Part shown: positions 11,201-30,439 of the stretch, in pieces
Numbering within the stretch: position 1 is the first letter of the stretch
How the letters are laid out: every line of letters begins with the position of its first letter
Origin: a virus
DNA length: 46,982 nt
Reading direction: 5' to 3' (one strand)
Virus record (IMG/VR): IMGVR_UViG_3300022846_000001
Span: 1-46,982 of that record
Notes under the pieces: generated by a model
Told to the model about the DNA's origin: nothing
What the model saw: only the letters and a program-made list of their open reading frames with translations
The model's database searches: none
Program-made: the position numbers and the translations under genes

Positions 11201-11967
11201 TAAAACAAGGAGACTTGGGTTTGCAAGAGACTCTTATACGGGGCGATTGTCTTGTAGAGATGCCACATATCCCTGATTTGTCAGTGGATATGGTTCTTGC
11301 AGACCCTCCATAACTTTACGGAACAACCGCTTGCAAATGGGATTCTATTATACCGCTTGAACCTATGTGGAAACAGTTAAAAAGGATTATCAAGCCTAAC
11401 GGTGCTATTGTCCTATTTGGTAGCGAGCCTTTTTCAAGTGCTTTAAGGATGAGTAATATCAATATGTATAGATATGATTGGATTTGGAAAAAAACGATGG
11501 CTACATTGTTTCAGCACGCCAACAGAATGCCAATGAAAATACACGAAAATATATCTGTATTTTATTCAGCCTTGCCGACATATAACCCACAAAAGACCAA
11601 AAGGGAAAAACCATACACCAAAAAAACTGGTGACAGGTCTAAAAGTGGGTTCCACGGAAACAGTATAAAATACAAACCCAACATTAACATAGAGTATGGT
11701 TTTCCAGTGGGGGTGATTGAGTTTTCAAATGGAAACCACAAAAGACAGCACCCCACCCAAAAACCAGTAGCATTAATGGAATACTTAATCAAAACATACA
11801 CAAACGAAGGCGAGACAGTTCTTGATTTTACAATGGGTTCGGGTACTACAGGAGTAGCATCAAAGAACTTAAACAGAAATTTTATAGGTATAGAAAAAGA
11901 CGAAACGTATTTTAATATAGCAAAAGAAAGAATTAATAATACACAACCAAAGCTATTAATGGGATAA
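11197..11967 (+). pseudogene. DNA N4/N6 methyltransferase interrupted at catalytic DPPY
   Basis: Beta-class DNA methyltransferase layout: motif IV first, then target-recognition region, then the SAM motif. From 11197 the frame reads MIKQGDLGLQETLIRGDCLV and reaches LADPP, then TAA at 11311-11313 (codon 39), then LYGTTACKWD and 200 intact residues including VLDFTMGSGTTGVASKNL (SAM pocket) and RNFIGIEKDETYF. Family members read DPPYGTTACKWD here, so a 6-base insert TAACTT explains the break while keeping the frame. The remaining frame could restart at ATG 11365 but would lack the catalytic Asp-Pro-Pro-Tyr. Phage methyltransferases usually protect DNA from host restriction. Sequencing error or readthrough are alternatives. 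Confidence 0.85.
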
Positions 11968-11970
11968 TAT

Positions 11971-14820
11971 ATGACAAAGAATAACAGAACCCCTGCTGAT
12001 TATAGAAACGGTGGTCAAGGCTGTATAGACTGGATTGAGGATAAGTGCTATCTTCCGGTTACTGCCGTTGGTTCAGATATAAGTGCATGGACTCCTGCGA
12101 ACAAACTCCCTTCAGAATATGACAGACTTTGGGAGGGTCAATGTGAAATATTGCGTGAAGCACTTGCGATGAAAAACGAAAAGTTCATACATCGGTTGAT
12201 AGTTTTATGCTGGCCTCGCGGTGACGGAAAATGTGAAAAAAAAGGAAGTAAAGTCATATACTTCGATGGTTCTGTTAAAAACGTTGAAGACGTTATTGTG
12301 GGTGACAAACTAATGGGTGAAGACAATAAACCCAAAACGGTTATGTCTCTAGCAAGTGGTACAGAAGAACTGTTCGAGGTTATGCCAATGCGTGGTGACC
12401 CAATGTTTGTTACTGGTGACCACATGCTTACATTAAAGAGAAGGAGAAGTCGTCTACACAAGCGTGGTAAACCATCACACGATATCCATGCTGGTAAAAT
12501 TATCGACATGTCTGTAAGGGATGTTCAGAAGCAAAGTAAGTGTTGGAAGGGTTTACACCTCCTCTACAGGGTTCCTCTTAATTGGCGAGAAAGGTCTGTT
12601 CCAATAGAACCTTACTTTTTGGGCATGTTTCTTGGTGATGGTGACAATAATAAACCAACAATAACAACAATGGACAAAGAGGTTGTTGATTACTTATATG
12701 AATTTGCAGACCGTATTGGCATGAAGGTTTCTGTTTATGATAAAGGAATAAGCTTGGCTAACAGATATAGTCTTATTACAGATGCTGGGCAACCAAACCA
12801 TTTACACAGGTTGCTTCTTAAACATAATATACTTTTTAATAAGCACATACCGAAGATATATAAGATAAATTCTAGGGAGGTAAGGTTACAGGTTTTAGCG
12901 GGACTTGTTGACTCGGATGGCCATATTAACAGGAATTCTGTTGAGATAATACAGAAAAACAAAACGCTGTCCGAAGACATAGTGTTTTTAGCAAGGTCTT
13001 TGGGTTTTCATGTGCAAATTAAGAAATGTAAAAAGGAGATAAAGAGCACAGGTTTTGTTGGAGAGTATTATAGAATGGGTATTTCTGGTGACTGTTCTAT
13101 TATACCAACTCGTATACAAAGAAAAAAGGCTCGCAAAAGAAGTGAATGGAAGGACGTTCTCGTTACTGGTATTAGGAGCATAAAGTCCATAGGTGTTGGT
13201 GAATACTACGGCTTTACTCTGGACGGTAACGGACGTTACGTGAGGGGCGATTTCACGGTAACCCACAACTCGTTAGTGGCTGTTTTGATACAACTTTGGA
13301 AGTTTTTTAACTGGCCTAGACAGCAGATTGTGTTGGGTGCAAACTCAAAAGAACAGACCAAATTCGTACATTACGATATTATGCGTGACATTATTCTTAA
13401 CAGCCCACCACTGCTGAATGTGATAGGTCTAAGGAACGTGCAGGAAAAGGATATAAGACTTAAGGACAGCAAGGGCAGGATAGTATCTCAAATAAGAGCG
13501 TTATCAACCGCAACAGGTATCGTATCAAATATCACGGGTTATACGTTCTCTGAGATGTTCAACATGAAGAAACCAAAGTTCTTTGTTGAGTTGTCAGGTT
13601 CTACTAGAAACATACCAAACGCTTTAGGTGTAATTGATTCAACTGTATCAGAAAAGACACATCAGCTGTATAAGCTCTACGAGGCATTTAAAAAGGGTAC
13701 GGACAAGACTATCTACTTCAGCCATAGGCAGAGTCAGTTTGGTGTTGTTGAGGACTTCTGGAACCCACACATGACCTCAGAACAGCTTCTTGCGTATAAA
13801 GAGCAGTTCCCTGCTGAAGACTTTGAGAGATTCTTCATGAACACTTGGTCTGCTGGTCAACGTAAGCAATTTACAGCAGAAATGGTTGAAGCAACGAGAT
13901 ACATTGGTGCTAACGGTAAGATTGGTAATCACGGTGAGGTTATGGGTCTTATGAAAAGAAAAGTAAAGGTACTTTCTAATGATGAAGATGGAATAGAGAA
14001 GGGGTTACCGTTCAGAGATTCGTTCACACAGCTTGATGATATAGAGAGAGCTTTATCACCTGTTGAGAAAATATATAATCTTGGGGATAAGTCTTCAGGC
14101 GGTAGTATGATTAGTAATCTTGATTTGGCAGAACTAGGGAAGGTATACAATACTGGTTGGGCTATTATGGCAGGGTTTGATAGGTCAGACCCAATGAAAA
14201 CAAATACATCAGCTAGAACAATTTTTACTTTGGTTGCAAAAGGTTTACCGGGTTCATTAAAGAATCCTGCTCAAGATGCAGACGATAATTTTATTCCAAA
14301 GTACATTTACTTCATGATTCATTTGGTTTCGCTTCAGCAGAACACACTTGAAGAGATGAAGTCTTTACTTGATGATGCTCACAGGGAGTTTGATGGTGTT
14401 GACAAGGTTACGGCTGAACGGTGGGGAATGTGGGATTTAGCGGTATGGTGTGAAGAACACGATGTTCCTTTTGAGGCTGTGTACCCTAATTACAACAAGC
14501 AGAGGGATGCTTTCAGTGAGTTGTATATCTTATACAGAGATGGCAGGTTTAAGACCCCTGTTTGCCCCGTAGCAGGTACAAAGAAGGATGATATACTGTA
14601 TGAAGAGGCTGTTACGTTTATACATGACCCAGACAAGAAGTGGTATGGTAGTCCTGAGAAGAAGCAGAAGTATGGTGTTCAGGATGACTGTATGTTTAGT
14701 CTTGGTTGGAACATCTATGGTGGCAGGGAACTTGGTATTGATGATTTAAGGACTAGGAGTTCAACTATGATATTCGGTGAAATGTTTGGTGGGCCAAGAA
14801 CGGTTGGAAGATACTATTAA
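11971..14820 (+). CDS. terL: Terminase large subunit precursor with intein
   Basis: A 949-residue precursor; splicing would leave 603. The ATPase half has WPRGDGK (81-87) joined to S434 as Walker A, GANSKEQTKF, and YTFSEMFNM (524-528) where Walker B is expected, with Ser in place of the usual Asp before the catalytic Glu. The nuclease half has GFDRSDP (D737) and DD at 905-906 as RNase H-like metal ligands. The enzyme drives DNA into the prohead and cuts concatemers at the portal. It starts 3 bases after the methyltransferase frame ends. The intein occupies residues 88-433. Confidence 0.9.
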   Translation: MTKNNRTPADYRNGGQGCIDWIEDKCYLPVTAVGSDISAWTPANKLPSEYDRLWEGQCEILREALAMKNEKFIHRLIVLCWPRGDGKCEKKGSKVIYFDGSVKNVEDVIVGDKLMGEDNKPKTVMSLASGTEELFEVMPMRGDPMFVTGDHMLTLKRRRSRLHKRGKPSHDIHAGKIIDMSVRDVQKQSKCWKGLHLLYRVPLNWRERSVPIEPYFLGMFLGDGDNNKPTITTMDKEVVDYLYEFADRIGMKVSVYDKGISLANRYSLITDAGQPNHLHRLLLKHNILFNKHIPKIYKINSREVRLQVLAGLVDSDGHINRNSVEIIQKNKTLSEDIVFLARSLGFHVQIKKCKKEIKSTGFVGEYYRMGISGDCSIIPTRIQRKKARKRSEWKDVLVTGIRSIKSIGVGEYYGFTLDGNGRYVRGDFTVTHNSLVAVLIQLWKFFNWPRQQIVLGANSKEQTKFVHYDIMRDIILNSPPLLNVIGLRNVQEKDIRLKDSKGRIVSQIRALSTATGIVSNITGYTFSEMFNMKKPKFFVELSGSTRNIPNALGVIDSTVSEKTHQLYKLYEAFKKGTDKTIYFSHRQSQFGVVEDFWNPHMTSEQLLAYKEQFPAEDFERFFMNTWSAGQRKQFTAEMVEATRYIGANGKIGNHGEVMGLMKRKVKVLSNDEDGIEKGLPFRDSFTQLDDIERALSPVEKIYNLGDKSSGGSMISNLDLAELGKVYNTGWAIMAGFDRSDPMKTNTSARTIFTLVAKGLPGSLKNPAQDADDNFIPKYIYFMIHLVSLQQNTLEEMKSLLDDAHREFDGVDKVTAERWGMWDLAVWCEEHDVPFEAVYPNYNKQRDAFSELYILYRDGRFKTPVCPVAGTKKDDILYEEAVTFIHDPDKKWYGSPEKKQKYGVQDDCMFSLGWNIYGGRELGIDDLRTRSSTMIFGEMFGGPRTVGRYY
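12232..13269 (+). mobile_element. LAGLIDADG homing intein in terL
   Basis: 346 residues (88-433 of the precursor). It begins with Cys and ends FTVTHN, with Ser as the first residue after it, the standard splice junctions. Inside are a block-B-like VTGDHML (TxxH), two LAGLIDADG helices, YFLGMFLGDGDNN and VLAGLVDSDGHIN, and a block-F-like GEYYGFTLDGNGRYV. It is therefore a full intein with a homing endonuclease domain whose two Asp are intact. It splits the Walker A GK/S bond, so the ATPase is inactive until splicing. Confidence 0.95.
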
Positions 14821-21298: not shown

Positions 21299-21778
21299 AT
21301 GAAGCAGAACGAAAAAAACATACTTTTACCTTCTCCGACTTTCGCTAAGCAGGCAACTGAATTTGGGTTGCCTGCGGCCAAGGCTTTCGTTAATGGTGAG
21401 ATTACAGCTGATGTTAATGGTTTACTTGACATAACAAGACAAGCTGGTAAAATAACAGATGTAGCTATTGCTGTTAACGCAAGTGGGTTAGATAATGCAA
21501 ACCCGTTAACGATGGAGGTGGATGTTTATTTAGATGGGGTTACGTGTCTAACCACGAAACCAAAGATAACATACACTAGCGGTGAAGCAAGCCAACAGAT
21601 TAGTACCGCAATATCTGGAGAATATACCGACATTGTTTGTGCTGTACTTGATACAGATGCTGTTGACTTTTCAGAGAACACTATTGTTTCTTTCCAAGCG
21701 AACTTGACTCGTACTGGGTCACCTGGAACTGAGATGGAAGGCTTGTGTGTGTTTGTTAAATATGAACCGTTCTTATAA
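21299..21778 (+). CDS. Hypothetical head protein
   Basis: A 159-residue protein, beta-rich with alternating Val/Thr (KITDVAIAVNASGLDN, MEVDVYLDGVTCLTT). It follows the capsid gene and has the size and character of a head-fibre or minor capsid surface protein, but no family is recognised. AGGAGGGTAAAG precedes the ATG. Confidence 0.6.
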   Translation: MKQNEKNILLPSPTFAKQATEFGLPAAKAFVNGEITADVNGLLDITRQAGKITDVAIAVNASGLDNANPLTMEVDVYLDGVTCLTTKPKITYTSGEASQQISTAISGEYTDIVCAVLDTDAVDFSENTIVSFQANLTRTGSPGTEMEGLCVFVKYEPFL

Positions 21779-22725: not shown

Positions 22726-23334
22726 TTGAGTTTAGGAGCAGACCTTAAAGAAACTTATAAAGAAATAGGTATCAAGGTTATTGTAGACGGAAGCGGTGAG
22801 GAGTATATTAAGTATGCACCTAACGCACAAGTTACAAAACCTTTTATCCGAGAGTTCTTTATTGAAGGAAGTATCCCATACGACACCACTCAAGTTATTG
22901 GTAGTATAGTCAGGTTTGACATTTTTAACAAAGACTACATGACTATGAACCTTACCCCCGAATCCCTCGAAAACGAGGTATATAAGTACAGTGGCGTATA
23001 TTACATGAGTAATGTGTCTGGCGAGATATTAAGACCGTCAGGAGAAGCTGTTTGGGATGATGAAACATATCAGAAGGTAACCTCATTTGAGACAATACAA
23101 GCCGATGCATACGCCCTTGAAACAGAACCATTATTTGGAACAGATTTAGATTCTCAATCAGAACTTGGCAATTTGAGTATTGAGAGAGAGGAACTATATA
23201 TACCAACACGTTACGGTATAAAGGCACTTGACAGATATCAACCAGCTTCTGGAGAATACTATCTTGTTGGTGCAGTAATGAGTAGAAGATTTGGTGGTAT
23301 GGATGTGTGTAAGCTTAGCGAAGATAACAGGTAA
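22726..23334 (+). CDS. Putative neck protein
   Basis: A 202-residue protein with TTG start, preceded by TGGAGAT. Mainly beta, with VTKPFIREFFIEGSIPYDT and ERKELYIPTR-like strands (EREELYIPTRYGIKALDRY). It lies last in the uninterrupted head block, at the place of a head completion or adaptor protein. The stop begins the second copy of the stop-adjacent dyad (23332-23353). No named family. Confidence 0.55.
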   Translation: MSLGADLKETYKEIGIKVIVDGSGEEYIKYAPNAQVTKPFIREFFIEGSIPYDTTQVIGSIVRFDIFNKDYMTMNLTPESLENEVYKYSGVYYMSNVSGEILRPSGEAVWDDETYQKVTSFETIQADAYALETEPLFGTDLDSQSELGNLSIEREELYIPTRYGIKALDRYQPASGEYYLVGAVMSRRFGGMDVCKLSEDNR

Positions 23335-23391: not shown

Positions 23392-25452
23392 ATGAAGAAA
23401 AAAGTTTTATTCGTTTGTGAACACCCACTTGGTACGACTGGAAACGGTGGTATGATGGCAGGGATTTTGTCACAACTAAACAAAGACGAGTACGATGCAA
23501 CACTTTTCTCTTGCGACCTCCCCCCAAACAATAATAAGAAGATGGCACTCGAACCACTTCCATGTAACATAGTATCTGCAAAAGAAGACAGCGATATGTT
23601 CGGCAAACAGAAGCTGTTAGATTTCTTAAGCCAAACAGATTGTGATATAGTCTTGTTTGTTGGGCATGATATATGGCAGTATGCACCAGTTTATGAAGGA
23701 TTAAAACAACTTCAAAAAGGCGGTAAAACATTTAAAACTGGTGCAATATTCCCATGGGATATCCAAGCAGTAAGAGAAGACTGGGTTAAGTGGATTAATA
23801 ACGTTGACTTCCCTTGTGTATATTCACAGCACGGCCTTGACGCACTCAAACCCGTAGCACCCAACATTAGATATTACAGACCTATGCTACATAGTTCTGA
23901 TAGTTTTAAAGAATTACCATCAGATCAAAACCTCTCAGACAAAAAGAAGATGCTACCCGGACTGTTACAAGATGAGATACTGTTCGGATTCGTAGGCGTT
24001 AATCAAATAAGAAAAGACCTACAGAGACTTCTAAAGGGGTTCTCAATAGCAGTTAAAAAGAACCCAAAGATTATTCTATACCTTCATACCGATATGGTAT
24101 CACCATCAAGATACAACCTTACACAGTATGCAATAGACTGTGGAATACCGAAAGAGAACTTAAGGGCAAAACAACAGGGTGTAACTATCACATTAGAACA
24201 GATGGTTGGGCTATTAAACACCCTCGACTGCCTTATAAACTGCTCCCTACAGGAAGGGTTGTCATGGACACCACTTGAAGCAATGCTTTGTGGAGTACCC
24301 GTTATAGCTTCAGACACTACCGCACAGACCGAACTGGTTAAGGGTGCTGGTGTGTTAGTTCCTAATACCATCCCAACCTATCAACCGCTTGTTGGTGCTC
24401 TTGGTCAGACCTTTATTGACGCACTTGCATGTGACCCTGAAGACATAGCAAAAGCTATCCTAGAAGTTGCAGGTAGCGAAGACTTAAGAAAAAAGATGAA
24501 AGCGGATGGTCTTAAAAAAGGGCAAGAATGGCTTGACGGTGTTTCAGACGTAAACGACCTTTTGAAAGATATGGCTACAGAACAACACAAGTTGAAAACA
24601 CAGAAAACAATGAAAAAAGATGAGGTTCTTTTTGTTCAATACGCATCTGCTGGCGATGTTCTTATGACAACACAGTGCTTTAAAGGAATAAAAGAACGTC
24701 ACCGTGGTAAGAAGCTTGTTTATATGACACAGAGTAAGTTTGCTGGAGTTGTTAAAGATAACCCACATCTTGACGATATCATACCATGGGATGCAAGAGC
24801 TGCTAAGGACTATGCAATAATTTATAACCCCCATGGGCAGAAGATACTACCGGGAAATTTTAACAGTGGAGATGCAAAATTATATGCAATGTATCCTTAC
24901 TTTTGCCACATAAAAGAACCTGATAAGATGTTTATTGCAAAAGACAAGCCAGACATAGAGGGTCTGTTTGATGAAGATTATATAGTTATAAATACGTCAG
25001 GTGCTTCCCCTTTTAGGCGATATAAACACATGGGTCTGGCTGTTGCTAATATTGGATATAAGGTAGTTATGGTTGGTTGTAGTTCAGACTTGTCCTGTGA
25101 TTGTGACTTTGACCTAAGAGACAGACTTACCTATACAGAAAGTGCGTACGTAATGGATAAAGCAGTTGGTGCAATAGTTGTGGACAGCTTCTGCTCTCAT
25201 CTTGCTGGTGCAGTAAATACGAAGTCGGTGTGCCTATTTGGCCCTGCACCTGCAAGGGTAGTTGGCCCTAGATATGACGACATAAGTAGGTTGGTGGAAC
25301 TTGAACCAAATAAGCTTGACGTGTGTCCAGTATCTTCAAACTGTTACGGACAACCCGGTTTTAACGTTTGTGATTCTCCCTGTATAAACACTTTGTCCCC
25401 ATTAAAAATTAAGAAAGAACTGCTTAAGTTGATAGGGGGAAACAATGGCTGA
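23392..25452 (+). CDS. Bifunctional GT4-GT9 glycosyltransferase
   Basis: A 686-residue protein with two GT-B enzymes in one chain. Residues 1-395 are GT4-like: GTTGNGGMMAGI near the start, FVGVNQIRKDLQRLLKGFSI, and QEGLSWTPLEAMLCGVPVIA with the paired Glu288 and Glu296. Residues 407-686 are GT9 (heptosyltransferase-like): QYASAGDVLMTTQCF, NTSGASPFRRYK, DSFCSHLAGAV and SVCLFGPAPARVVGP, then a CPVSSNC...CDSPC cluster. It would add two sugars in sequence. It starts a non-structural cassette between neck and tail genes. AGGAG precedes the ATG. Confidence 0.85.
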   Translation: MKKKVLFVCEHPLGTTGNGGMMAGILSQLNKDEYDATLFSCDLPPNNNKKMALEPLPCNIVSAKEDSDMFGKQKLLDFLSQTDCDIVLFVGHDIWQYAPVYEGLKQLQKGGKTFKTGAIFPWDIQAVREDWVKWINNVDFPCVYSQHGLDALKPVAPNIRYYRPMLHSSDSFKELPSDQNLSDKKKMLPGLLQDEILFGFVGVNQIRKDLQRLLKGFSIAVKKNPKIILYLHTDMVSPSRYNLTQYAIDCGIPKENLRAKQQGVTITLEQMVGLLNTLDCLINCSLQEGLSWTPLEAMLCGVPVIASDTTAQTELVKGAGVLVPNTIPTYQPLVGALGQTFIDALACDPEDIAKAILEVAGSEDLRKKMKADGLKKGQEWLDGVSDVNDLLKDMATEQHKLKTQKTMKKDEVLFVQYASAGDVLMTTQCFKGIKERHRGKKLVYMTQSKFAGVVKDNPHLDDIIPWDARAAKDYAIIYNPHGQKILPGNFNSGDAKLYAMYPYFCHIKEPDKMFIAKDKPDIEGLFDEDYIVINTSGASPFRRYKHMGLAVANIGYKVVMVGCSSDLSCDCDFDLRDRLTYTESAYVMDKAVGAIVVDSFCSHLAGAVNTKSVCLFGPAPARVVGPRYDDISRLVELEPNKLDVCPVSSNCYGQPGFNVCDSPCINTLSPLKIKKELLKLIGGNNG

Positions 25453-25633
25453 AAATAAGTTTTATGTTTATGCATGTTTAGACCCAAGAATTGGTAAAAA
25501 ACGGAACAAAGAAGCAAGGTTGAACATGTCAATGACTCAAATAAATAAAAACAAAGAACTAAAGATTAAAAAGTTGTATCAATCTATTATTAATTTAATA
25601 ATAAGAAAGGAACAGGCACTATGTGGATTGTGA
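25445..25633 (+). CDS. Small protein, possible GIY-YIG remnant
   Basis: A 62-residue protein overlapping the transferase stop. Its first 17 residues, MAENKFYVYACLDPRIG, resemble the start of GIY-YIG homing endonucleases (YYVYxxLDPRxxG), but the GIY/YIG catalytic blocks are missing and the rest is a Lys-rich helix. It may be the leftover of a deleted endonuclease, or an unrelated small protein. GGGGGAAACA precedes its ATG. Confidence 0.4.
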   Translation: MAENKFYVYACLDPRIGKKRNKEARLNMSMTQINKNKELKIKKLYQSIINLIIRKEQALCGL

Positions 25634-26361
25634 TGAAGTCAAAAAACGAGGAGAACAGTGTTGAAAGATGTATTTCAGATTTCCATGACGAGTCGTGGGT
25701 TTCAGGTATCAGGGTTGTTGACGGAAAATCTTCTGACTTTACTGTACATTTGTTAAAACAGTTTTCAAAGGTAGAGGTTTTTTCACACGAATATCTGGAT
25801 TTTTATCATGACCAAGAAATTATGCAAGCAAACATAATGTGGTCATACGTACCTAATGGAGAGATTGGGTTCTCTCTTGACTTTGACGAAAGATGCAATG
25901 CGCCATTAAAGAAATTCTTGGCACAGGTCGATGAAGCAAACGAGCTTCCTGAAGGTGCAGACCTTGTACACGTAGCAAGACGAACCGTTGAAGTTATGAG
26001 GCACGAAGACAGCACGTTTGCGATTCTTGATAAAACTGGCTGGCCCATAGAGAGCCACCAGATTGGTCAGTTTCCAGACGCACAACCCCGCATTATGCGT
26101 AAGAACTACAGAATGCACTGGATACAATCGCCTCATCGTACGCTGTGCGGTTTCACAAAAAACCACAACCTCAACACGGACTGTTACATCGAACATTTTG
26201 AAAAAGATGATGTCAGGTCGAGGCGGTGGATTGAGCGTAGATGGCTTAAACCAATAGCATCAAGAAAAGCACTTGGGCTTCCTGCTGACCTGCACGAATG
26301 TCAACCCAAGCCAGAATTCTCAGAAGCTGCTGACATTGGTTACTGGAAGGATATTAAATGA
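25621..26361 (+). CDS. GT-A (GT2-like) glycosyltransferase
   Basis: A 246-residue protein. MWIVMKSKNEENSVERCISDFHD is the N-terminal nucleotide-sugar strand-helix, WVSGIRVVDGKSSD the next strand, and GFSLDFDERC carries the DxD-type metal motif. PRIMRKNYRMHW and PHRTL follow as in small GT2-like enzymes (a GPRIFRK..G-type acceptor region). It should transfer a sugar from a nucleotide donor in the cytoplasm. The 3' end overlaps the methyltransferase start (ATGA). Confidence 0.75.
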   Translation: MWIVMKSKNEENSVERCISDFHDESWVSGIRVVDGKSSDFTVHLLKQFSKVEVFSHEYLDFYHDQEIMQANIMWSYVPNGEIGFSLDFDERCNAPLKKFLAQVDEANELPEGADLVHVARRTVEVMRHEDSTFAILDKTGWPIESHQIGQFPDAQPRIMRKNYRMHWIQSPHRTLCGFTKNHNLNTDCYIEHFEKDDVRSRRWIERRWLKPIASRKALGLPADLHECQPKPEFSEAADIGYWKDIK

Positions 26362-27026
26362 TATATAAAGTATCAGAAGGGCCAATAGCAACAGACGAAC
26401 AAAAGGTTAGAGACTATCTAAAAGAAAAGAACTTTAAGAGAGTTCTTGATATAGGTGGTGTTCATCGTCCATGGGCAAGACCATATGTTACGCACTATGC
26501 AGACCTCATTCACCCCGATACTTGGGCAAAGAGATATCCAGAAATGAAAGAGTATGAGGGTTTTTGGGACAAGGAATTTATGCTTGGTGATGCAGAGACT
26601 TTAAATGCAAAGTGGAAAAATCCTTTTTATAATTTTGACTTTGTAATATGCACTCAAGTTTTGGAACATTTAAGAGACCCTAAAGAGTTTGTTAGAGTGT
26701 TACAGGATATAGCACCTGAAGGTTTTATATCTGTGCCTCACAAGATTTTTGAATTAAGAAAGGGTTTACACTATGGGTATAATTTTAGGGGTGCTATTGC
26801 TCATAGATGGATTAACGATGTTCGTAAAGGTAAGCTTTACATGTACCCGAAGTTGAATTTTATAGAGGCTATGGAGTTTCCTTTTGACACTATTAAACAC
26901 ATACCAGACTTATCTTTTTGGTGGGCCGGTAACAGCATACCTGTTGAAGTAGCTGATGATACGAAATATGATTTACCAGACCCAGCTGAAGCCATGAATA
27001 TTTTTGCAGAAGAAATGGGGAAGTAA
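26358..27026 (+). CDS. SAM-dependent methyltransferase (class I)
   Basis: A 222-residue protein. FKRVLDIGGVHRPWARP is a motif-I-like SAM site, FDFVICTQVLEHLRDPKEF the motif IV region of small-molecule methyltransferases (EHLxDP), and APEGFISVPHKIFELRKG follows. It resembles Methyltransf_11/23 enzymes that act on sugars or other small acceptors. It is coupled by ATGA to the transferase before it and lies 1 base from the next start. Sugar O-methylation is inferred from neighbours. Confidence 0.8.
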   Translation: MIYKVSEGPIATDEQKVRDYLKEKNFKRVLDIGGVHRPWARPYVTHYADLIHPDTWAKRYPEMKEYEGFWDKEFMLGDAETLNAKWKNPFYNFDFVICTQVLEHLRDPKEFVRVLQDIAPEGFISVPHKIFELRKGLHYGYNFRGAIAHRWINDVRKGKLYMYPKLNFIEAMEFPFDTIKHIPDLSFWWAGNSIPVEVADDTKYDLPDPAEAMNIFAEEMGK

Positions 27027-27027
27027 T

Positions 27028-27933
27028 ATGATTACAAACAACACCATAGGAGTTGTTGTGAACTGTGACACCAGACCGGGTTATTTAGATAATGAAACCT
27101 ATTGCGGTAAGATAGGTGGTATGGGTGCTAACGGTGCTAGATCAGCAGACTTTATAATATCAAACGTTTATAACAAGAGAGAGTTCTTTAGAGGATATGA
27201 CATTGAACTAACATTATACATTGACCTTCATACTGCAATAACCAAAGATGTATGGGCAAACATTAAAATAATGGTTGACAGGGGTGATATTGATAATCTT
27301 GTTATCGCAAAACACACAGACATTTATAAAGGTAGAAGGATAAGGCAGTGGCAGGACATTAACTATATTAATGCACTTACGATGTCTAAGAGTAAATATA
27401 TTGCACACTTTGATGCAGACACATCAGCTTACAGAAAGAATGATTCAGATATTATAGATAGGTTTAAGAACATAGTAGATTCTGGAGAATACAAGTATAT
27501 ATCGTATCCGTCTTATCATAGCCCAAACGAAGGTGATGTACCCGGCCAGAACGCTTATCCAACTCCAGACCAAACTGATAAGCCAGACTATTTGTGGGCA
27601 TCAACCAGATTTTTCTTTTGCAAGAGTGAGTCTATAAAACACGATGAGTTTATTAATCTATTAGATGACAGACAGTGGATAGCAGCACACAACGGTAGAC
27701 CTCATAGATATCCAAACGTAACAGAACAGATATTAGGTTTCACAGCTGGAGCGAACAAGGTAATGTTTGCACCTAAAGAGTTAGAAGAGTATATGATTTT
27801 TTGTTGGCACACGTACCATAGTGGTACTATTGACAAGCTAAGGTATCTTACCTATGAAGAAATATATAAATATATAATGGAAACATGCGGTGGCATTTGT
27901 GGCCCGTGTGATGTTAATGAGGTTGGGTTATGA
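27028..27933 (+). CDS. GT2-like glycosyltransferase
   Basis: A 301-residue protein. IGVVVNCDTRPGYLDNETY opens it, SKYIAHFDADTSAYRKND carries the DxD metal motif, and a Cys-rich end (CGGICGPCDV) closes it. The GT-A fold is likely, the sugar is unknown. The ATG at 27028 is preceded by GGGGAAGTAAT; a longer frame from 27004 has no such site. It overlaps the next gene (ATGA). Confidence 0.75.
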   Translation: MITNNTIGVVVNCDTRPGYLDNETYCGKIGGMGANGARSADFIISNVYNKREFFRGYDIELTLYIDLHTAITKDVWANIKIMVDRGDIDNLVIAKHTDIYKGRRIRQWQDINYINALTMSKSKYIAHFDADTSAYRKNDSDIIDRFKNIVDSGEYKYISYPSYHSPNEGDVPGQNAYPTPDQTDKPDYLWASTRFFFCKSESIKHDEFINLLDDRQWIAAHNGRPHRYPNVTEQILGFTAGANKVMFAPKELEEYMIFCWHTYHSGTIDKLRYLTYEEIYKYIMETCGGICGPCDVNEVGL

Positions 27934-28508
27934 TAAAACCTGAAAAAATAAACGATAAGTATTATGTTGAATTGCTTTCTTATGGTGAAGTACATCCAGC
28001 TGGCCCTTCTGCAACTGTGGCAAAAGAGCACTTCGGTGACAAACCTATAACCATCTTAGAGATTGGTGTCTTAAGAGGACACAATGCTCATGCAATGAAC
28101 AAACTACTAAATCCAGAGCTTATGGTTTTAGTAGACCCTTGGGGTTTTTGTGGTGAGACACACGATAGTAATTGGGCAGACACTTGGTTTAGGATACAAG
28201 ATGATGAAAACATTGTAGTGTTAAAAGCAAAATCAGAGTTAGCGTCTAAATTGCTGTCATGTAACTTTGATTTTATTTATATAGACGGTGACCATATTGG
28301 CGGTGAACTTTCACCAACCACCGAAGAAGAAGGTATTAGAAAAGATATTAAGTTATGGTTACCGAGGGTTAATGCTGGTGGTATCTTGGCTGGGCATGAT
28401 TATAATTACGACAATATTGGACTAGAGGTTAACACCGTATTTGGTGATAAAGTAAATCACTCACCGTACATAGAGAATGGAACTCAAGAATGGTGGGTAT
28501 ATGTTTAA
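27930..28508 (+). CDS. SAM methyltransferase (Methyltransf_24-like)
   Basis: A 192-residue protein. ITILEIGVLRGHNAHAMNKL (SAM pocket), VLVDPWGF, FDFIYIDGDHIGGE and GGILAGHDYNYD follow the order of small class I methyltransferases, often found with glycosyltransferases. The Asp-Gly-Asp-His motif and the AGHDY end are strong. It may methylate a sugar hydroxyl or carboxyl. It is coupled to the preceding transferase by overlap. Confidence 0.85.
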   Translation: MIKPEKINDKYYVELLSYGEVHPAGPSATVAKEHFGDKPITILEIGVLRGHNAHAMNKLLNPELMVLVDPWGFCGETHDSNWADTWFRIQDDENIVVLKAKSELASKLLSCNFDFIYIDGDHIGGELSPTTEEEGIRKDIKLWLPRVNAGGILAGHDYNYDNIGLEVNTVFGDKVNHSPYIENGTQEWWVYV

Positions 28509-28526
28509 CAATCTAAAGGAGAAAAT

Positions 28527-28643
28527 ATGATTTATAACGAAGTAGCGTCAAACGATTTATTTACTGAAGACTTGCAGGGTGAAAGAAACAAGGTACAGAC
28601 GTTTTTAAAAGACAATCCAGACCTTTGGAATAGAAAGAATTAA
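28527..28643 (+). CDS. Small hypothetical protein in the cassette
   Basis: A 38-residue frame, MIYNEVASNDLFTEDLQGER then NKVQTFLKDNPDLWNRKN, with AAAGGAGAAAAT as a good ribosome site and the next gene starting 1 base after its stop (TAATATG). Size alone makes it uncertain. The family is not recognised. Confidence 0.5.
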   Translation: MIYNEVASNDLFTEDLQGERNKVQTFLKDNPDLWNRKN

Positions 28644-28644
28644 T

Positions 28645-29856
28645 ATGAAACCAGACATAACGTTAGTATTCCCAAGCAGTCCGTTTCTGTTGAACCAGAT
28701 AATGTTCCCACCGTTGGGGATAATGTATCTGAGTGCTTTTTTGAAACAGCATGGTATGGCGGTACAGTGTTTAGACATGGCTTTAGGACACACTGCTGAT
28801 ATGGCAGAGGCTGACATTATAGGTCTTTCTTTCACCACCCCACAGAGGGACGAGGCTTTTAAGTTGGCTAAGTATTATAAAAAGAAGGGTAGGTATGTAA
28901 TGGCTGGTGGCCCTCATCCTACCCACATGCCAGAAGAGTGCAAGCAGAACGGTATAGATTTGGTAATACCGGGATACGGTGAAGTACCACTATACAATGC
29001 AATGCAAGAGATCAAGGGTGGTAGCGATAGAATAACTGAAGACGTTAAAATAGACGACTACCCAATGCCAGACAGAGACTGTTTGCCTATCAATAAGTAT
29101 TACCAAGAAATAGATGGTTGTATAGCTACACCATTGATTGCCTCTAGGGGATGCTATGGAAGATGTTCGTTCTGTTCAAAGGTGAGTCCCAAGTTTAGCA
29201 TACAGTCTGCTGAAAGAACTTTAGCTGAAATAGAGCACCTAAACTCTAAGTATGGCTACACTGCTTTCTCAATATATGACGACACCATCGCAACAGACAA
29301 AAAAAGGTTAAGCCTGTTGGCAAACGATTTGGTTGACAGAGGTTATAAGTTTAGATGCTTCTGTAGGGCAGACCTTTTAAATGATAAAAATGTTTGTTTA
29401 GACTTGTCAGCAATGGGTGTTGTTGACGTAGGTATTGGCATTGAAAGCGGTTCTGATTATATATTAAAGAAGAATATGAAGGGTAACACAGTTGACATTA
29501 ATACTATTGCCGTAAGAAATCTACAAGAAGTTGGTGTAAGAGCGAAAGCTTTCTTAATTGTTGGACTTCCTGGTGAGAACGAAGACACGGTAAAAGAAAC
29601 TGCAAGATGGATAGAGACTGCTCAACCTGATGATATTGGTGTTTCCATGTTTCAGCCTCTTCCGGGTTCAGATATTTTTAAACATCCAGAAAAATATGAT
29701 ATAGAGTTTAAGTATAATGGTAATCCAATGTGGTATAGAGGTACACCGGGTGAGTATAAACCAATGACAAGGACTAAAGACTTATCAACAGACAGAATAA
29801 TAGAACTTAGAGACCAACTAGAAGGTAACTATAAACGTAAGGAGTTGCTTCAATGA
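28645..29856 (+). CDS. Radical SAM enzyme with B12-binding-like N-terminus
   Basis: A 403-residue protein. The first 130 residues (LGIMYLSAFLKQHGMAV, then ADIIGLSFTTPQRDEAF, GGPHPTHMPEEC, PGYGEVPL) match the B12-binding-like domain of class B radical SAM methylases, but a DxHxxG cobalt ligand is not visible. C170, C174 and C177 (SRGCYGRCSFC) form the CxxxCxxC cluster, and GVVDVGIGIESGSD and AFLIVGLPGENEDT follow. Such enzymes methylate unreactive carbons or rearrange sugars. In this cassette, C-methylation of a sugar is a plausible role. Confidence 0.85.
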   Translation: MKPDITLVFPSSPFLLNQIMFPPLGIMYLSAFLKQHGMAVQCLDMALGHTADMAEADIIGLSFTTPQRDEAFKLAKYYKKKGRYVMAGGPHPTHMPEECKQNGIDLVIPGYGEVPLYNAMQEIKGGSDRITEDVKIDDYPMPDRDCLPINKYYQEIDGCIATPLIASRGCYGRCSFCSKVSPKFSIQSAERTLAEIEHLNSKYGYTAFSIYDDTIATDKKRLSLLANDLVDRGYKFRCFCRADLLNDKNVCLDLSAMGVVDVGIGIESGSDYILKKNMKGNTVDINTIAVRNLQEVGVRAKAFLIVGLPGENEDTVKETARWIETAQPDDIGVSMFQPLPGSDIFKHPEKYDIEFKYNGNPMWYRGTPGEYKPMTRTKDLSTDRIIELRDQLEGNYKRKELLQ

Positions 29857-30044
29857 GGGGTAAAATATATTGGATATGCAATAAATGCGGTACCGAGATT
29901 GAAGACAAGGTTAATTGGTTCAGCGGTAAATATACATGCACTAACTGTGGTACAGAAAAAGACTCTCACTATATAGAACAGCAGTTAATACAACGTGGTA
30001 AGATGAACCACGAAAAAAAGAATAAGGAGGAAAACGAATGCTAG
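29853..30044 (+). CDS. Zinc-ribbon protein
   Basis: A 63-residue protein with IYWICNKCGTEIEDK and KYTCTNCGTEKDS, a four-Cys ribbon, and a Lys/Glu/Asn tail. It overlaps the radical SAM gene (ATGA) and the next gene. It may be a partner or regulator of the cassette. Function unknown. Confidence 0.7.
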   Translation: MRGKIYWICNKCGTEIEDKVNWFSGKYTCTNCGTEKDSHYIEQQLIQRGKMNHEKKNKEENEC

Positions 30045-30439
30045 ACGTTTTTGTTATTAATGTACACCAACCTAACTCTAGTTTTGTAGAGGCAGTAAGT
30101 TCTTTCAATGGTAGGATTAACAGGATGTATGCGGTTGATACCATGGCAGACATAAACAATATAGCAAAAGAATCTGAGTGGTATGGAGTGTTGTATGATA
30201 ATGAGACAATAGAAGACCAACTACTTGAGGCACTACCTGTTTTCTTTGAACAGTCTAAGGCTGATGTTTTGATAGCTTACCGTGGCAACAATGACAATAT
30301 TAAACCAGAGTCAATGGGGCCAAGGTTTTTCAGGAGAGATGTCGTGTTGAGCAATTTGTGCCTTGACGTTGAAGACGAAGAAGGATTGGTATTTGATAAA
30401 ATATTAAATGGATGGATTTTAAATAATGTCAGCACCTAA
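30038..30439 (+). CDS. Hypothetical protein, possible GT-A-like fold
   Basis: A 133-residue protein. VFVINVHQPNSSFVEAV, WYGVLYDNETIEDQL, a long helix with LPVFFEQSKADVLIAYRG and PRFFRRDVVLSNLCL recall the shape of a small nucleotide-sugar transferase (a strand ending in a D-x-E-like site, and a PRxFR acceptor segment). No full DxD motif is visible. It ends the cassette just before the tail genes. It may be a degenerate transferase or an unrelated protein. Confidence 0.45.
   Translation: MLDVFVINVHQPNSSFVEAVSSFNGRINRMYAVDTMADINNIAKESEWYGVLYDNETIEDQLLEALPVFFEQSKADVLIAYRGNNDNIKPESMGPRFFRRDVVLSNLCLDVEDEEGLVFDKILNGWILNNVST

Follow-up and report, generated by a model that had tools for sequence, protein, structure and literature searches.

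Glycosyltransferase (GT) and methyltransferase (MT) genes within a virion structural operon are known from the cluster O mycobacteriophage Corndog, whose gp35-gp38 comprise an O-methyltransferase and three GTs located between portal and protease (PMC4351075). Glycosylation of virion proteins (capsid, tail tube) by mycobacteriophage GTs has been reported for Corndog, Che8 and Myrna, according to work cited in PMC12363180. Related blocks occur in Pontimonas phage phiPsal1 (GT4-MT-GT2 between capsid and neck genes) and Microcystis phage Mae-JY09 (RfaG-type GT), and chlorovirus PBCV-1 employs viral GTs and MTs (A064R, A061L) to produce a methylated capsid oligosaccharide (PMC9614988). The present report describes a sugar-transfer cassette, larger than the known GT and MT blocks in virion operons, in a stretch of 46,982 bases (the window) from an uncultured tailed phage, a fragment represented by IMG/VR record IMGVR_UViG_3300022846_000001. 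The window contains a late operon (capsid protease, capsid, tail tube, tape measure and lambda-like tail tip genes) and ends inside the tip gene. The sugar-transfer genes lie between a neck gene (ending at 23334) and tail-completion genes (from 30426) and share the strand of the morphogenesis genes. In the cassette proper (23392-29856), genes for a GT4-GT9 fusion and two GT-A transferases are combined with those for two class I MTs and a B12-binding radical S-adenosylmethionine (SAM) enzyme.

The presence of MTs next to GTs in a virion operon, regarded as new in an earlier note on this DNA, is already known from Corndog and phiPsal1. Corndog shares the O-methyltransferase and the GTs, but its block is placed between portal and protease, neither a GT4-GT9 fusion nor a B12/radical SAM enzyme has been reported for it, and no comparable family of exchangeable cassettes is described in the literature compared. 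The GT (and MT) genes of phiPsal1 and Mae-JY09 are located between the capsid and the neck/head-tail genes (GT4 with 28-29 % identity to the window GT4), but these blocks are short, lack the GT9 half and lie left of the neck gene. PBCV-1 resembles the cassette in combining fused GT domains with MTs, but is a eukaryotic virus with unrelated enzymes and an N-linked glycan. With bacterial O-antigen and lipopolysaccharide (LPS) loci the cassette shares the pattern of conserved core enzymes accompanied by exchangeable aminotransferase, epimerase and pyruvyl-, acyl- and carbamoyltransferases, whereas flippase, polymerase and ligase are not apparent and the genes are embedded among those for phage assembly. 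As judged from these gene comparisons, four features are new: the GT4-GT9 core, the presence of a B12/radical SAM enzyme, the constant location of the slot between neck and tail genes, and an O-antigen-like turnover across many phages.

Fixed slot, constant core and changing periphery

Alignment-based scans yielded 198 loci (designated by L numbers), which after dereplication on the neck gene represent 103 phages with a complete neck gene. The slot following this gene is occupied by GT4-GT9 in 70 phages, empty in 29 (e.g., L021) and undecided in four; other content was found in none. The position of the cassette in related phages had been named beforehand as a check, and the outcome agrees with a fixed placement: 60 of 61 homologous GT4-GT9 genes follow the neck gene (56 of these within 82 bp, most within 35 bp), the exception being L192. 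Closed cassettes are 2.0 to 10.7 kb long and start with GT4-GT9 in 33 of 34 cases. The smallest consist of GT4-GT9 alone (L039, L040, L043 and L107, the latter from a Melioribacter genome bin); the fusion must therefore be useful by itself.

In 99 phages the neck gene flanks the cassette or the empty slot on the left in conserved synteny. On the right, the zinc ribbon gene had been counted as a cassette member; the gene is indeed present, but together with the adjoining gene for a 133-aa protein it belongs to the backbone, since related phages with an empty slot retain both, which delimits the insertion to the coordinates given above. A two-CxxC open reading frame (ORF) persists at the zinc ribbon position in most empty-slot phages, and homologues of the 133-aa protein are encoded in cassette-bearing as well as empty-slot phages, in many of the latter next to the slot.

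Gene changes were counted on a capsid tree of 30 phages with closed cassettes. The first GT-A gene, present in 27 of the 30, underwent a single change and is the second most conserved cassette gene, compared to five changes for the first MT (Methyltransf_23), seven for the second GT-A and eight each for the second MT (Methyltransf_24) and the radical SAM gene. Thus, GT4-GT9 appears to be the founding enzyme, near-constant along with the first GT-A, while the remainder turns over fast. The variable genes of other cassettes (DegT aminotransferase, epimerase/dehydratase, carbamoyltransferase, LicD-like protein, pyruvyltransferase, hexapeptide acyltransferase, SPASM enzymes) represent sugar chemistry by family assignment; annotation of several ORFs as sulfotransferases was rejected due to scores below cut-off. 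Of 373 cassette ORFs with at least 90 aa, a simple hydropathy scan picked out just three with a strongly hydrophobic 19-residue stretch, one stretch each, and proteins of the flippase or polymerase type are therefore not apparent. Membership in the serotype-conversion (gtr) type, which is defined by a membrane flippase and a membrane GT, was rejected on the same count.

Ratios of nonsynonymous to synonymous substitution rates (dN/dS) of 0.07-0.13, at unsaturated dS, were obtained for the GT4-GT9, first GT-A and radical SAM genes and are similar to those of capsid and neck genes. This purifying selection indicates that the cassette genes are functional. The sugar-transfer block is not a chance arrangement.

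Recent exchange is evident from comparison with L004: a stretch of about 1.2 kb is 100 % identical in DNA sequence to the window (about 24500-25750), within flanks of 75-80 %. The identical tract covers the GT9 half and an endonuclease remnant, its breakpoint lies near the GT4/GT9 domain boundary, and complete divergence follows from 26.3 to 28.5 kb; the identical tract beside a fully divergent stretch implies that recombination was recent and local. The remnant, a 62-aa ORF overlooked in the earlier gene list, aligns with both ends to full-length GIY-YIG/NUMOD3 ORFs of 274-278 aa at the same place in L005 (8769-9605) and L007 (6590-7414). Co-conversion by the lost endonuclease is a possible origin of the identical tract.

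Phages with an empty slot form a single clade on the capsid tree (SH-aLRT 100; one change), and in most of them the tail genes are immediately followed by another type of GT/MT block. A Ser/Thr-rich tail of the neck protein is found in 27 of 29 empty-slot and in none of 70 cassette-bearing phages; as the clade counts as a single event, this exclusion was dropped as evidence on the acceptor. The empty-slot phages sampled (L199-L203, L206-L208) possess Ser/Thr-rich tracts in neck and tail-tip or fibre proteins, reaching 20 of 20 residues. Cassette-bearing L142 combines such tracts with a homologue of the GT4 of the second block (29 % identity), and the tracts are absent from eight other sampled contig stretches with a cassette. 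The Ser/Thr-rich tracts are thus more plausibly associated with the second cassette type, on the basis of one clade and one further phage. A search of the literature on O-glycosylation of Thr-rich phage proteins turned up no relevant work.

Enzymes encoded in the cassette

Gene identities, strand and order (Table 1) are as first described, with Pfam matches (judged against curated cut-offs), the HxDxD motif and fold evidence in agreement. Coupling by ATGA overlaps or gaps of a few bases had been claimed throughout; 4-base ATGA overlaps indeed exist at three junctions (26358, 27930, 29853), but the second MT and the radical SAM gene are separated by 136 bp. This gap contains a 38-aa ORF (28526-28642) preceded by AGGAG, resembling a ribosome-binding site.

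Table 1 Features of the slot region in the window
Feature	Position	Strand	Basis
Neck/head-completion gene, left border of slot	22726..23334	+	named from synteny
GT4-GT9 fusion glycosyltransferase, 686 aa, C-terminal four-Cys motif	23392..25452	+	Pfam, PDB matches
GIY-YIG endonuclease remnant, internally deleted, 62 aa	25445..25633	+	alignment to full-length ORFs
First GT-A (GT2-like) glycosyltransferase	25621..26361	+	PF00535 below cut-off; PHROG 13126, E 9e-5
Class I SAM-dependent methyltransferase, Methyltransf_23	26358..27026	+	PF13489 over cut-off
Second GT-A glycosyltransferase	27004..27933	+	motif and predicted fold
Class I methyltransferase, Methyltransf_24	27930..28508	+	PF13578, 39 bits, over cut-off
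B12-binding-domain radical SAM enzyme, last cassette enzyme	28645..29856	+	Pfam over cut-off
Zinc ribbon, backbone gene, right border of slot	29853..30044	+	Zn-ribbon matches
133-aa protein, compact GT-A-like fold, backbone gene	30038..30439	+	predicted model and Foldseek

The fusion joins a retaining-type GT4 half to a heptosyltransferase-type GT9 half. Assignment to the two families is supported by the profiles PF13692 (45.1 bits, cut-off 27) and PF00534 (also over cut-off) for GT4 and PF01075 (28.1 bits, cut-off 22) for GT9, and for GT4 additionally by the EX7E motif, the glutamates of which (E288, E296) are invariant in the alignment. Among 56 homologues, the pattern E[GA]x6E occurs in 46, D[ST]xx[ST]H in 47 and the four-Cys motif in 55. 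Profile matches in the PDB are 3oy2, 3tov and 1psw, the latter two to the GT9 half (1psw is WaaF). Four cysteines are also characteristic of TibC, an ADP-heptose-using GT-B enzyme of the bacterial autotransporter heptosyltransferase (BAHT) family with a metal motif (iron finger, Cys339/342/358/370) and a protein acceptor (PMC4358343). Their spacing is CX2CX15CX11C in TibC but CX5CX6-10CX3C in most GT4-GT9 homologues, a difference for which BAHT membership was rejected, and TibC possesses a beta-barrel domain in place of which the fusion carries its GT4 half.

The product of 27004-27933 (start at TTG 27004 or ATG 27028) did not match any Pfam family, yet it is a GT-A enzyme: the HxDxD motif (H127, D129, D131) is invariant in a 13-sequence alignment, the predicted model reaches a predicted local distance difference test (pLDDT) of 81.5 and a predicted template modelling score (pTM) of 0.85, and nearly all of the 50 best Foldseek matches in the PDB are GT-A glycosyltransferases (best E 2.3e-6), including GTA/GTB and glycogenin.

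The radical SAM enzyme contains the B12-binding domain (PF02310, 57.6 bits) and the CxxxCxxC motif (C170, C174 and C177 in the alignment; PF04055, 72.3 bits) expected of class B B12-dependent radical SAM methyltransferases. Among proteins of solved structure, AprD4 is closest to it in sequence, with OxsB and CysS ranking lower; all NCBIfam scores remain below cut-off. AprD4 is designated an apramycin biosynthetic oxidoreductase in the structure entry and its family diol-dehydratases in NCBIfam. Consequently, C-methylation, the activity originally ascribed to this enzyme, is retained as one option, AprD4-like deoxygenation or dehydration being another.

Proposed virion glycan and rival explanations

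The cassette probably constitutes a late-expressed, soluble glycan-assembly set that decorates the phage's own virion proteins. Its genes would be expressed together with the virion genes. The GT4-GT9 fusion would set a two-sugar core on the acceptor, one sugar per half. ADP-heptose or a related donor would serve the GT9 half, which would probably transfer heptose or a similar sugar. The donor might be provided by the host or, in three relatives, with the aid of phage genes: homologues of the HldE adenylyltransferase and kinase, which the window lacks, are encoded directly upstream of GT4-GT9 in L020, L061/L170 and L175 (in L020 with NCBIfam E-values of 2e-42 and 7e-62 and scores below the equivalog cut-offs), pointing to a presumably heptose-like donor. 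The first GT-A would extend the core, and the exchangeable outer set (second GT-A, two MTs, B12/radical SAM enzyme) would add and alter outer residues. Recombination and gene swapping would diversify the slot in the manner of an O-antigen locus and thereby change the outer chemistry of the particle, with shielding, adhesion or altered adsorption as conceivable benefits.

The most likely acceptor class is virion protein, considering the fixed placement of the cassette and the experimental precedent in mycobacteriophages. Virion glycosylation, as proposed originally, remains the best reading and the slot survey is consistent with it. The beta-rich protein encoded at 21299-21778, previously suggested for this role, was rejected as an obligatory acceptor since homologues are missing from several cassette-bearing phages; independent pairs were too few for an analysis of co-variation. 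A more far-reaching interpretation, advanced here tentatively, is that the slot may serve a widespread group of tailed phages as a "serotype locus" for a virion glycan based on heptose, in which the GT4-GT9 core would stay constant and the outer chemistry would be exchanged rapidly. The outer groups could include C-methyl or deoxy (B12/radical SAM), O-methyl, pyruvyl and carbamoyl groups and perhaps sulfate and phosphocholine. On this view the sister clade may meet the same need by a second, post-tail cassette acting on Ser/Thr-rich neck and tail tracts.

Several observations weigh against decoration of the virion. All comparisons are sequence-based and named no acceptor protein, and the virion proteins of the window are devoid of a Ser/Thr tract (maximum 11 of 20 residues). 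The cassette of L192 (9992-20554), comprising GT4-GT9 (31 % identity), GT-A, MT and radical SAM genes, resides next to DnaJ and nuclease (exonuclease) genes on a contig without a related capsid gene; a cassette can therefore exist outside the slot. Moreover, soluble GT9 and GT4 enzymes also build the LPS core, and the missing membrane proteins are compatible with a host target.

The latter points, together with the L192 arrangement, speak for late remodelling of the host LPS core or another surface glycan, which would keep progeny from re-adsorbing or prevent superinfection. The LPS heptosyltransferases make up family GT9 (cf. the match to WaaF 1psw), LPS core GTs do not need a membrane span, HldE-type genes precede GT4-GT9 in the three phages mentioned, and diversification would fit as well. 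Such remodelling is nevertheless unlikely: the neck-tail placement, found in 60 of 61 cases, links expression with particle assembly and not with early takeover, the 373 cassette ORFs show no apparent membrane anchor, flippase or ligase, and little new LPS is made late in the lytic cycle. Still less probable is that the enzymes synthesise a free small molecule or modify proteins of the host, the slot being a mere permissive insertion point. Late-gene slots often take up cargo, and GIY-YIG and HNH endonucleases enter this very slot; mixed cargo would be expected, however, whereas GT4-GT9 is present in 70 of 70 filled slots and the first GT-A is near-constant. Glycosylation or other hypermodification of phage DNA, for which viral GTs of other phages provide a precedent (Pyle 2024, as cited in PMC12619734), is very improbable, since the aminotransferase, pyruvyl-, LicD and carbamoyltransferase modules are polysaccharide chemistry and a scan of window genes, covering a fragment and not dedicated to this purpose, recognised no gene for base hydroxylation or base synthesis but only a DNA N6/N4 methylase.

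The chemistry of phage particles is usually regarded as that of protein alone. If virion decoration is correct, virion glycans would keep pace with bacterial surface sugars in their evolution, given a fixed slot with a constant core and a fast-changing periphery in some 70 environmental phages. Adsorption, the stability of particles, their uptake by grazers and the immune recognition of phages would all be affected. Natural empty slots, one-gene cassettes and a sister clade with its own cassette offer ready comparisons by which the function of virion glycans becomes testable.

Neighbouring genes and minor observations

The product of the neck gene lacks a PHROG match; in the window phage it ends with ...SEDNR, without a Ser/Thr tail. 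The model of the 133-aa protein (pLDDT 92.7, 41 sequences) matches SpsA (1h7q, best E 6.8e-4) as well as SunS and WrtF (TMq up to 0.69) in Foldseek, and this protein may act as a minimal enzyme or have been recruited for a structural role.

Searches against isolated phages by megablast and capsid tblastn gave no matches, and host assignment via the genome bins of capsid relatives was abandoned due to conflicting affiliations (Melioribacter, an alphaproteobacterium, Paludibacteraceae, Bacteriovoracaceae). No tRNA was found in the window, and promoter and terminator scans performed no better than on shuffled sequence.

The DNA N6/N4 methylase gene (11365-11967) adjoins the gene for the large terminase (11971-14820), which carries an intein with Hint and LAGLIDADG domains (residues about 88-419) in its P-loop (GDGK/S). 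The intein is absent from L047, L160 and L056; L031 and L043, which align along the entire length, seem to contain it.

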